64,000 nucleotides of DNA. Source: Helicobacteraceae bacterium. GTDB taxonomy: Bacteria; Campylobacterota; Campylobacteria; Campylobacterales; Sulfurimonadaceae. The translations under genes and the position numbers were made by a program. Where the stretch lies: positions 1-64,000 of the forward strand of contig JALVUF010000062.1 of assembly GCA_027023805.1 (NCBI GenBank), written 5' to 3'. The notes beneath the pieces are model-generated. The model was not told where the DNA came from and ran no database searches. It saw only the letters and a list, made by a program, of their open reading frames with translations. Within the stretch, counting starts at the first letter, position 1, and every line of letters starts with the position of its first letter. Shown here one piece after another: positions 37,116 to 41,801 of the stretch.

Positions 37116-39448
37116 TTATAACTAGAAGTTGGCTTAGCGAATATATTAATTTGGATGATATATCAAATGAGCAGTTGTGTGAAACATTAAATTCAATCGG
37201 TTTAGAAGTCGGAAGAGTTGTCAGGTATGATATACCTGAGGATATAGTTTTTGGGTATGTAAAAGAGTGTAAAAAACATCCCAATGCGGACAAATTAAAT
37301 ATCTGTCAAGTAGATGTGGCAGATGAGGTGCTGCAGATTGTATGCGGTGCATCAAATGTTCGCAAAGGCTTACATGTAGCCGTTGCTCTTGAGGGCGCTG
37401 TGATGCCCGGCGGCATGAGAATATCTGCGGTTAAGTTGCGTGGGGTTGAAAGCCATGGAATGATATGTTCTGCCTCGGAGTTATCTTTAGTAAACATAAA
37501 TGACGGGATAATTGAGTTTGATCAAAGTATAGGCAATATTGTACTAGGCACAAGATTACGGGACAACCATTATCTTCAAGACACACTCATAGAGATTGAA
37601 TTAACCGCCAACAGAGGTGACTGCCTGAGTATTTATGGTGTAGCAAGAGATTTATGCGTTGCGTTTGACAGAAGCATTAAATCAAAAAGTAACAAAAATA
37701 CAGATGAAACATCAATAGGAATCGGTAAGGTTTTACAATTAAAACATCCAGCTTCAGTAGATGCCAATTTGAAATTTAAAGTCTTAGATATTAAAAATAT
37801 ATCACTTGCATTTCTTATCTCTTTACGCTTAGCGCAAATAGAGTATAAGTCGCTAAATACTGCTGATGCGTTTACCGCTTATACTACGCATGAGTGTGGA
37901 GTCATTTTACGTTTATACGATTATGAATACTTTAAAGCACAAGGACAAAATGATAAGGCAATTGTATCACTTGAATCAGATACCAATGGATTTTTATGCG
38001 TACAGGGCAAAGGGCGGGCATCTATTGTGGGCGTTATGCAGGAGAAAGATTCTTTATTTAATAAAAATGAAGGATTAGCGATAGCTGAAGCATCCTACGT
38101 GGCACCAGGTTTAATATCAGATCAGATGTCTAAAAGTAAAATAGAAAGATCATCATCTTTTTATTTGTCATCAAGAGGCAGTAATCCTGATTTGAAAATG
38201 GGTTTGAAGCTTTTATTTTTACTTTTACAATCATATGGAGATATTGATATATTTGGTGGTACTGCCGAGGTGCTAAATCATAAAGAAGAGAAAGTTGTAG
38301 TTTTAAAGTTACATGAGATTTATGATATTATAGGCGCTAAAATAGATAAAAAAAAGATAGTAAATATCCTACAAAAACTTGATTTTAATCTTGAAAAATC
38401 ACAAGGTGATACATTTATTGCAGCGGTACCAAAATTTCGTCATGATATATCAAACAAGCAAGATATTGTTGAAGAGATACTGCGTTTTACGGGCATTGAC
38501 AATATTGAGCCAAAACCATATCTGCTTAAAGAAGCAAATCGCCTGTCTGAGGGATATTTTAGATTTAAAAAATTAAAACATTATCGCCACAAAGCCGCAT
38601 ATAACGGTTTTTTTGAAACAATCCATTTTATATTTGCCCATAAACAAGAGTTGGTAAAATATAACTTTGATACCGTACAAAATAAGTTGGACATTGTAAA
38701 TCCTATAGTAACGACGATGGATACCCTGCGTACAACACTGATGCTTGGCTTATTAAATTTTGCAGGACAAAATAAAAAAGTAGGCAACCAAAATATGGGC
38801 TTATTTGAGATTGGTTCGGTATTTACAGACAAAAGAGAAGAAGTTGTCAAGGCAGCATTTTTATATACCGGTAGCTTTGAGCAGGAGGGAATTATAAACA
38901 GTGCAACATCAACTATTATGGATTTTGGGCATTTTGTTCAATTGATCTCTAATATTATAGGTGAAGTTACACTTAGTAAAGCTACATGCAAGCATAGTTT
39001 AGGACACCCGTACCAATGCGCTGATATATTGCAAGATAATAGGGTTATAGGCTCTGCATTTAGGCTTCATCCTACGGTGCAAGATAATTTTGATCTACAA
39101 GACACCTATATGTGTGAGATAAATTTTGAAGCACTTTCTTATGAAACAGTGCATGTAAAAGCGTATTCAAAATATCAGTCATCTTTTAGAGATTTGAGTC
39201 TGCTAGTACCAAAAACCATGGAATATGCAACAATCAAAAAGATTATACAACAGAGTAAACCAGGTGAGATTATACGCTTTTACCCCGTTGATAAATATGA
39301 AGATAAATCTCTTAAAAATTTATCTAGTTTAACTATCCGTTTTGTGTTGCAATCAGATGAGAAAACTTTGCAAGATGAAGAGATTGTCTCATGCATGGAT
39401 ACGATAACATCATCTCTTAAAGATAAGCTTGGCTTGGAGTTAAGATGA
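37112..39448 (+). CDS. pheT: Phenylalanyl-tRNA synthetase beta subunit
   Basis: Structural, tRNA-binding and editing subunit (778 residues). Parts: N-terminal B1 and a tRNA-binding EMAP-like domain (about 40-150, [14 protein letters not shown] ... GASNVRKG), B3/B4 editing region, B5, a catalytic-like core without activity, and the C-terminal ferredoxin-fold anticodon domain ([21 protein letters not shown]). It is joined to pheS by an ATGA overlap and to aroA by another. Confidence 0.96.
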
Positions 39449-40728
39449 GCAGGGCAGAGATTGCAGCAGTTGAGAGTTTTACTTTCTCATCCTCTAAAAT
39501 AGCACCGGATAAATCCATCTCACATCGTGCGGTAATATTTAGCATGCTAGCGCGCGGAACTTCTGAAATTACAAACTTTTTACGGGCTGAAGATACTATG
39601 AATTCGCTTAGTATTGTAAAAAATCTTGGCGCAAAAGTAGAGGACGACGGAAAAACAATCAAAATAAGTGCAGATAAGATCCGTGAGAGTGCAACTGTTT
39701 TAAATTGTGGCAATTCAGGTACGGGGATGCGTTTGTTTTGCGGATTTTTAAGTTCTGCGGATGGTCATTTTGTGTTAAGCGGAGACGAGTATCTCTCATC
39801 TAGACCAATGCAAAGAGTAGTTTTGCCGCTTAAGAGTATAGGTGCATATATTGACGGTAGAGAAAATGGAAATTTAGCCCCTTTGTGTATTCGCGGCATG
39901 AAGTTAAAAGCATTTGATTATACCGGTAAGATAGCATCAGCGCAGGTTAAAAGTGCTATGATTTTAGCTGCATTAAAAGCAGATGGAGAGTGTAGATATA
40001 CCGAGCCTGAACTCAGTCGTGATCATAGCGAGAGGATGTTGCGTGGTATGGGAGCAAAGCTTAGCAGGGATAATTTAACAACCATTATAAATCCGCTAAG
40101 TGCACCGTTGGAGCCACTAAAAATTCATATCCCGTCAGATCCTTCAAGCGCCTTTTTCTTTGCGGTAGCTGCCGCTATAACCCCAAATGCTACAGTCAAA
40201 TTAGAGAATATTACATTAAATAAAACGCGTATAGAAGCGTATGAAATTTTAAAAAAAATGGGTACAAGTGTTGAGTACGAACTGCTAGAAGACAAGTATG
40301 AGCCCATAGGAAACATCATGATTTCATATCGCCCATTAAAGGCCGTGACAGTTGAAGATAATATCTCCTGGCTAATTGACGAACTACCTGCTTTATCTAT
40401 TGCCTTTGCCTGCGCTAGCGGAGTAAGTGTGATAAAAAATGCAAGAGAGTTGAGAGTTAAAGAGAGTGATAGAATATCAACTGCTATATCAGGGCTTAAT
40501 GCATGTGGGATTAAGACAGATGAAACAGAAGATGGGTATAGCGTGTATGGAGGTCGTTTAAAAAAGGCTGTGATTAATAGTCATGGAGATCATAGGATAG
40601 CTATGAGTTTTATAATAGCGGGTTTAAAATGTGGTATGATTGTAGATGATATAGAGTGTATCAACACCTCTTTTCCAAACTTTTTTAAGTTAATGCAACA
40701 AATCACACGAGTCAAAATCGAGCATTAA
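39445..40728 (+). CDS. aroA: EPSP synthase
   Basis: 3-phosphoshikimate 1-carboxyvinyltransferase, sixth step to chorismate. It shows PDKSISHRAVI, the GNSGTGMRLF substrate loop, KSAMILAALKADG and RVKESDRI. Its 427 residues match the family. It overlaps pheT by four bases, and its TAA stop shares its last base with the first ATG of the 82-bp tandem repeat. Confidence 0.97.
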   Translation: MSRAEIAAVESFTFSSSKIAPDKSISHRAVIFSMLARGTSEITNFLRAEDTMNSLSIVKNLGAKVEDDGKTIKISADKIRESATVLNCGNSGTGMRLFCGFLSSADGHFVLSGDEYLSSRPMQRVVLPLKSIGAYIDGRENGNLAPLCIRGMKLKAFDYTGKIASAQVKSAMILAALKADGECRYTEPELSRDHSERMLRGMGAKLSRDNLTTIINPLSAPLEPLKIHIPSDPSSAFFFAVAAAITPNATVKLENITLNKTRIEAYEILKKMGTSVEYELLEDKYEPIGNIMISYRPLKAVTVEDNISWLIDELPALSIAFACASGVSVIKNARELRVKESDRISTAISGLNACGIKTDETEDGYSVYGGRLKKAVINSHGDHRIAMSFIIAGLKCGMIVDDIECINTSFPNFFKLMQQITRVKIEH

Positions 40729-40973
40729 TGTTAAAATTTCTTGCCCTCAGGCATAGCTTTAGTGATAGGAATTTTAGCTGGACTTTGTTCAGATAAAAGG
40801 AGACAATTAATGTTAAAATTTCTTGCCCTCAGGCATAGCTTTAGTGATAGGAATTTTAGCTGGACTTTGTTCAGATAAAAGGAGACAATTAATGTTAAAA
40901 TTTCTTGCCCTCAGGCATAGCTTTAGTGATAGGAATTTTAGCTGGACTTTGTTCAGATAAAAGGAGACAATTA
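40728..40973 (+). repeat. Three perfect 82-bp tandem copies, each a mini-ORF plus RBS
   Basis: Copies at 40728-40809, 40810-40891 and 40892-40973 look identical base for base. Each starts with ATG, encodes a 22-residue peptide beginning MLKFLALRHSFS and ending in TAA after 69 bases, then has AAGGAGACAATTA, a strong ribosome binding site, directly before the next ATG. After the third copy comes ATA in place of ATG and then the ispH ATG, so ispH uses the RBS of copy 3. In another frame the unit reads LPSGIALVIGILAGLCSDKR, like the hydrophobic end of a membrane protein. Because 82 is not a multiple of three, frames do not continue between copies. Confidence 0.97.
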
Positions 40974-40976
40974 ATA

Positions 40977-41801
40977 ATGAAACTTGAACTTGCAGAAAAT
41001 TACGGCTTTTGTTTTGGTGTAAAGCGTGCTATTAAAATTGCTGAGGAAAATAAAAATTCATCCACATACGGCTCTTTGATCCATAACACTAAAGAGATAC
41101 ATAGATTACAGCAAGATTTTAATGTTAGCTTAAAAGAAGATATATCAGAATTTAAACAAGGCGATAAAGTAGTAATCAGGACTCACGGCATCCCAAAAAA
41201 TGAATTAGAGTTTTTAAAAAGAAGTGATATTGACGTCATTGACGCAACCTGTCCTTATGTTACAAAGCCACAGCGGATATGTGAGCAGATGAGCAAAGAA
41301 GGGTATGATGTGGTTATCTACGGTGATGAAGCACATCCTGAGATTAGAGGAGTGAAAAGTTATGCACAAAACGGTGCTTATGTTGTTACCTCTTTAGATG
41401 CCCTAAAACAGCTTAATTTAAAAGAGAAAATCGCATTGGTTGCTCAAACAACAAGAAAGATAGAAGACTATGCTAAAATGGCAAGTTATCTAATTCCAAA
41501 GTACAAAGAGGTGCGCGTCTTTAATACTATCTGTAACGCTACTTTTGAAAATCAAGACGCAGTGCGTAAATTGGCTAAAAAAGTAGATATTATGATTATT
41601 ATAGGAGGCAGCAACTCCTCGAACACTAAGCAGCTTTTTAACATAGCCAGAGAATATTGCACCGATAGTTATCATATAGAGGACAAAGATGGACTAGACC
41701 CTAAATGGTTTACGGCAAAGACCCATTGCGGTATTAGCGCAGGAGCTTCTACGCCTGATTGGATTATACAAAATGTAATAGATTCTATACAAAAGTTGTA
41801 A
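40977..41801 (+). CDS. ispH: HMBPP reductase IspH (LytB)
   Basis: Last step of the MEP isoprenoid pathway, giving IPP and DMAPP. The three [4Fe-4S] cysteines are in YGFCFGVKRAI, DATCPYVTKPQ and NTICNATFENQD, and the catalytic glutamate region and GGSNSSNTKQL are present. The track start at 40905 lies inside the tandem repeat; the ATG at 40977 gives the standard MKLELAENYGFCFGV, with AAGGAG ten bases before it. Length 274 residues. Confidence 0.96.
   Translation: MKLELAENYGFCFGVKRAIKIAEENKNSSTYGSLIHNTKEIHRLQQDFNVSLKEDISEFKQGDKVVIRTHGIPKNELEFLKRSDIDVIDATCPYVTKPQRICEQMSKEGYDVVIYGDEAHPEIRGVKSYAQNGAYVVTSLDALKQLNLKEKIALVAQTTRKIEDYAKMASYLIPKYKEVRVFNTICNATFENQDAVRKLAKKVDIMIIIGGSNSSNTKQLFNIAREYCTDSYHIEDKDGLDPKWFTAKTHCGISAGASTPDWIIQNVIDSIQKL

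Follow-up and report, generated by a model that had tools for sequence, protein, structure and literature searches.

Introduction

In Enterobacteria, ERIC/IRU elements are small structured repeats that are co-transcribed between genes; their orientation matters, and a ribosome-dependent effect on RNA cleavage has been proposed for them (PMC2229807). The Correia/NEMIS repeats of Neisseria are dispersed and transcribed stem-loop repeats with a proposed role in RNA processing (PMC2229807). The BOX elements of Streptococcus pneumoniae are dispersed, vary in tandem copy number, are transcribed as operon extensions and can create short reading frames (PMC3049150).

Here we describe an element that lies three times in tandem between aroA and ispH in a stretch of 64,000 nucleotides (hereafter the window) from a Helicobacteraceae bacterium, whose source genome (G000) is a draft assembly of 1.64 Mb in 73 contigs. 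Like ERIC/IRU, the element is a small, structured, intergenic repeat, and like the MITE-type repeats (ERIC, NEMIS, RUP) it forms a dispersed multi-copy family. However, the 127-bp ERIC repeat carries terminal inverted repeats and a target-site duplication, whereas the element has two independent hairpins, unpaired ends, an invariant core, a Shine-Dalgarno sequence (SD) and an open relay frame. Terminal inverted repeats, 24 bp long in NEMIS, are absent from the element. It resembles BOX in being dispersed with varying tandem copy number, but BOX is modular (boxA-boxB-boxC) and boxB alone varies in number, while the element repeats as a whole unit with its SD; at the sequence level, the comparison consists of the absence of any Rfam match to the element. 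As in riboswitch-like cis-regulatory RNAs, a covarying structure and a conserved core stand just upstream of the SD, but the genes downstream are functionally unrelated, copies are found ahead of 16S rRNA as well, and Rfam 15 contains no matching family. Finally, as in coupling by overlapping stop and start codons (ATGA/TAATG), a mini-ORF overlaps the upstream stop and often, by ATGA, the next start; the difference is that coupling would here run through an inserted, folded and mobile-looking element.

Results

By scanning the window with Tandem Repeats Finder, we found a single 82-bp array at 40724-40975 (period 82, 3.1 copies, 100% matches, 0% indels). Its score of 504, against only 59 for the runner-up array in the window, indicates that it is not due to chance. 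Searched with the 82-bp unit, the 1.64-Mb assembly gave exactly three matches at 100% (40728-40809, 40810-40891 and 40892-40973) and nothing elsewhere. The perfect tandem triplication in front of ispH (40728-40973) that was first read from the sequence is thus confirmed. The same search gave no support for a parent gene of the hydrophobic frame of the unit, which the original prediction had tentatively linked to the end of a membrane-protein gene: the unit has no second site in the genome, and a conserved RNA core, read in one of its frames, simply yields this hydrophobic sequence. Each unit consists of an ATG, 21 further codons and a TAA, followed by AAGGAGACAATTA. As had been noted, the aroA stop and the first mini-ORF ATG share one A (TAATG). 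The last SD of the array lies 9 nt upstream of the ispH ATG at 40977. After the third unit the sequence reads ATAATG instead of ATG, so that the third SD serves ispH directly. The features of the locus are as follows.

39445-40728, + strand: aroA, the upstream cistron (ORF list); its TAA overlaps the first mini-ORF ATG
40724-40729, + strand: ATTAAT, left short direct repeat (sequence)
40728-40809, + strand: element copy 1 (covariance models R1/R2, 91-95.5 bits; repeat and unit searches)
40728-40796, + strand: mini-ORF of copy 1, encoding MLKFLALRHSFSDRNFSWTLFR and a stop (sequence)
40740-40756, + strand: hairpin P1 of copy 1 (family consensus structure)
40757-40771, + strand: conserved core of copy 1 (family consensus structure)
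40772-40798, + strand: hairpin P2 of copy 1 (family consensus structure)
40799-40803, + strand: SD GGAGA of copy 1 (sequence)
40810-40891, + strand: element copy 2, identical to copy 1, with SD GGAGA at 40881-40885 (repeat finder, unit search, covariance model)
40892-40973, + strand: element copy 3, identical, with SD GGAGA at 40963-40967 serving ispH (repeat finder, unit search, covariance model)
40977-41801, + strand: ispH, the downstream cistron (ORF list and protein search)

What the first reading had missed is the nature of this small unit, which is a member of a dispersed structured RNA family. Compared with 299 genomes of the order, the 82-bp unit gave many significant matches beside other genes and in other genera. 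With covariance models, which were short-calibrated and give rough E-values, we found the family in 129 of the 399 sampled Campylobacterales genomes, with up to about 20 copies. A family-level sample contained 17 carriers among 61 genomes; in a sample of the phylum, the 35 carriers out of 249 genomes all fell within Campylobacterales. A deeper scan of four genomes counted 20, 18, 16 and 2 copies. One copy lies between two genes on a Sulfurovum mangrovi plasmid, and none was detected among phage records and viral contigs. A weak match (37 bits) also falls inside an RNase P RNA gene (L178:1501-1581 in G072, gene at 1299-1705), and is perhaps derived from the element or merely a similar variable stem. 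Rfam 15 gave no relevant match at permissive thresholds, and the open-licence literature on the core sequence and related repeats yielded nothing relevant, the Arcobacter motifs of PMC6429828 being outside this comparison. A structured RNA family with very strong covariation, reaching about 20 copies per genome, seems to be undescribed in a well-sampled order.

The aligned matches share P1 (CU-NNNN loop NNNN-n-AG), the invariant core AGCUUUAGUGAgAGGAAUUUU, P2 and the end AAAAGGAGAC with the SD. RNAalifold recovered P1 and P2 unaided, and the consensus fold contains these two separate hairpins only, with no terminal inverted repeats or closing helix. Pair counts exceeded shuffled and slid controls by far. 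In a MAFFT alignment, which is free of the covariance model, 93.3% of the pairs could form. In alignments fitted to the covariance model, and therefore biased towards its structure, 97.1% of the cells were paired among 52 distinct sequences and 96.4% among 89 further ones; the first set held 245 double changes vs 67 after shuffling, the shuffles for these pair counts keeping the relatedness among sequences in place. At the orthologous aroA-ispH site alone, 94.7% of the pairs were kept and 30 double changes were counted vs 10.8. In addition, G-U pairs outnumbered A-C mismatches in the stems (170 vs 31, and 89 vs 11 in a held-out set), which argues for folding as RNA of the mRNA-sense strand rather than as a DNA hairpin. 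Together, the compensatory changes at one orthologous site and the G-U bias indicate that the RNA fold is kept by selection.

An extra 5' helix, P0, is variable, pairs only with the upstream flank and was not predicted by RNAalifold in a 12-sequence subfamily, while inverted repeats directly 5' of P1 are enriched. At L096, L110, L255, L165 and similar loci, a long inverted repeat (ATGAAACCCT...AGGGTTTCAT) with a similar loop stands just 5' of P1, which suggests that the element exists in an extended form in this subfamily. Pairing of the core with 16S or 5' 23S rRNA was no better than with shuffled sequences.

Then, we looked at the genes around the copies, taken from simple ORF calls: 135 of 191 unique copies lie between same-strand genes, 22 precede a gene with a divergent neighbour, and nearly all are in sense orientation. 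The next start codon follows GGAG at a median distance of 7 nt. First, GGAG is present in 92/101 copies with an adjacent start vs 30/90 others (odds ratio 20). Second, a held-out replicate gave 45/58 vs 12/28 (p=0.003). GGAG thus being commoner beside a start, the SD is under selection at the places of its use. The downstream genes, named by eye from their start sequences, are unrelated (ispH, aroC, argF, rimO, gcvH, nadC, hslV, hslU, trpB, rpoC, rplJ and others), and a ligand-specific riboswitch was dropped as an explanation for this reason. At L193 (G044) and L161 (G361), rplJ is preceded by four tandem copies, and further copies separate rplJ from rplL and rpoB from rpoC. In several genera (L120, L180, L122, L128, L127, L346), the element follows the 3' end of lepA and, in the cases compared, the final 20-30 bases of this gene recur downstream of the element.

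Copies are also found in rRNA operons. In one genome (G354; L206, L207, L208, L209), the element directly precedes 16S rRNA at four places and occupies the spacer that follows 16S at two, and a second genome (G313, L124) has it just upstream of 16S; in these operons the SD-like end has degenerated (GGAAA, GAAGA). Copies ahead of 16S or within the 16S-23S spacer cannot be translation relays. They would fit an RNA-processing or stability signal, in which an endonuclease would cut the core between the hairpins and these would shield the new ends, P1 the 3' end on the upstream side and P2 the 5' end on the downstream side, translation being secondary. Two stable hairpins flanking an invariant core agree with such a signal, and a comparable action has been reported for ERIC RNA in Yersinia (PMC2229807). 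Nevertheless, this explanation predicts neither the link of GGAG to an adjacent start nor the open relay frame described below, and we regard it as improbable.

In 41 of 190 copies, vs 12.6 in shuffled flanks, a short frame begins at an ATG just 5' of P1 and stays open until the element ends. As a sharper test, we took all ATGs overlapping or almost touching the upstream stop, whether or not their frame was open (junction ATGs). This pattern was noticed after the fact and then replicated on new loci. First, in the initial set, 24/24 junction ATGs avoid the core frame that contains UAG-UGA. Second, among 80 new held-out loci, 14/14 junction ATGs open frames of 26-75 codons, one of them, with an altered core, being scored closed by the frame test alone. 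Third, in the combined data the junction-ATG frame reaches the end of the element in 45/45 copies from 39 distinct upstream contexts, vs 15/90 for the other two frames at these loci. ATGA overlaps were seen in 21 copies at the first junction, with the upstream stop, and in 15 at the second, with the next start; the triple array of G148 is crossed by a single 75-codon frame.

These data bear out the view of the unit as a translation cassette between two genes. In contrast, the idea that the mini-ORF peptide has a role of its own found no support: both open core frames are used, which makes the peptide itself an improbable function, and, of the 6 codons in which the window genome and its closest relative (G002) differ, 4 change the amino acid. 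A junction ATG is present in just 45 of 277 copies, so that the relay is not a general property of the family and applies directly to this subset only, the window locus with its TAATG included. The RBS-ORF units therefore characterise part of the family, in which the translated bridge would matter and not a particular peptide.

To place the triplication in time, we compared the window with its nearest relatives. Among eight genomes of the genus, the closest is G002 (MAG Helicobacteraceae S009_32), whose ispH is 90% identical and differs at 24% of third codon positions. It carries one copy at exactly the same aroA-ispH position, with 9/82 sites different from the window unit. Three identical copies beside this divergence indicate a triplication that is young or homogenised, unless it is an assembly error, in line with the recent origin that had been among the options raised. 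ATTAAT flanks the single copy of G002 on both sides and also lies at the unit boundary in the window, so that slippage or unequal exchange there would yield the 82-bp unit; this suggests that the duplication arose between two ATTAAT repeats.

It is quite improbable that the three copies are an assembly artefact and that the locus really contains a single copy, like that of G002, a question independent of what the element does. The perfect identity of the copies, the 73-contig draft and the single copy of the nearest relative would agree with an artefact, but arrays of 2-4 copies occur at 24 of 158 distinct places, with adjacent identity of 54 to 100%, and some are on single-contig assemblies (G044, G321). 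The recurrence of tandem arrays makes the window triplication credible, and the window array is therefore the young and perfect end of a common tandem pattern.

In most relatives, aroA and ispH overlap or sit within about 2 nt, whereas in carriers, several Sulfurimonas MAGs among them, a gap of 75-150 nt is filled by the element. On an ispH tree of 71 genomes, the 9 intact aroA-ispH carriers require 8 changes (mean of 8.7 with shuffled labels), which indicates that the element comes and goes at this site and is dispensable there. Remnants without the second hairpin P2 were found in G003, of the same genus, and at L042. One aroA-ispH copy (L039:2911-2995) has an extra hairpin of about 35 nt within the core. 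In some Sulfurimonas genomes (L034, L021, L071), the gap holds other palindromic repeats, of the TCCTGAATCAAGTTCAGGATGAC type, which marks the aroA-ispH junction as a hotspot for small insertions.

Elsewhere, four operons of one genome (G304) carry copies that are nearly identical across more than 100 nt, and flanking direct repeats scoring at least 11 accompany 12% of single copies vs 1.6% of controls, with variable lengths of 10-37 nt. From these sequences we infer that the element may move. A transposase partner was not found. A REP/RAYT origin was rejected: ten loci around Y1_Tnp genes contain no element, and G000 has no Y1_Tnp match.

The patchy gain and loss at aroA-ispH, the near-identical copies within one genome, the flanking direct repeats of up to 37 nt and the decayed remnants would all suit a selfish small repeat like ERIC, NEMIS or BOX, spreading and kept, with no host function, only where harmless; the SD and open frame would then be present since only such insertions survive. 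However, compensatory changes at one orthologous site together with the G-U bias show a fold under selection, nearly all copies are in sense orientation, and no transposase partner accompanies them. We hold a purely selfish repeat to be somewhat unlikely.

Discussion

The reading that we favour, and to which we give about an even chance, is that the array is a recent local triplication of a dispersed intercistronic RNA element of Campylobacterales that acts as a translation relay, the relay being what we infer from the anatomy of the element and the constraint on its frame. A single copy was probably tripled through the ATTAAT repeats at its ends. Ribosomes finishing the upstream gene would restart at the overlapping ATG and translate the element, which would thereby be unfolded; they would then terminate at the following start or close to it and begin anew there, aided by the element's SD. 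Two cistrons now separated by the element would thereby stay coupled, and in the window three relays would stand in series ahead of ispH, whose expression they may affect. When ribosomes are absent, the folded hairpins and the core would be exposed, perhaps as a signal for RNA processing or stability, a role that would likewise fit the copies directly preceding 16S rRNA.

A broader version of this reading, which we consider unlikely as it stands, is that the element is a mobile RNA module. Such a module would insert between overlapping genes and couple them through its own start site, through-translated frame and SD; without ribosomes it would double as a folded processing signal, and hence work in rRNA operons. 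If this were true, tandem copy number would be a natural dial on downstream expression.

The element links three subjects that are usually separate, namely small mobile repeats, structured leader RNAs and translational coupling. Its relay frame offers a sharp and testable reason why an insertion between overlapping genes may be tolerated, and the natural series of one copy (G002), three copies (the window genome) and four copies (G044) is suited to a direct test of copy number against expression of the next gene.
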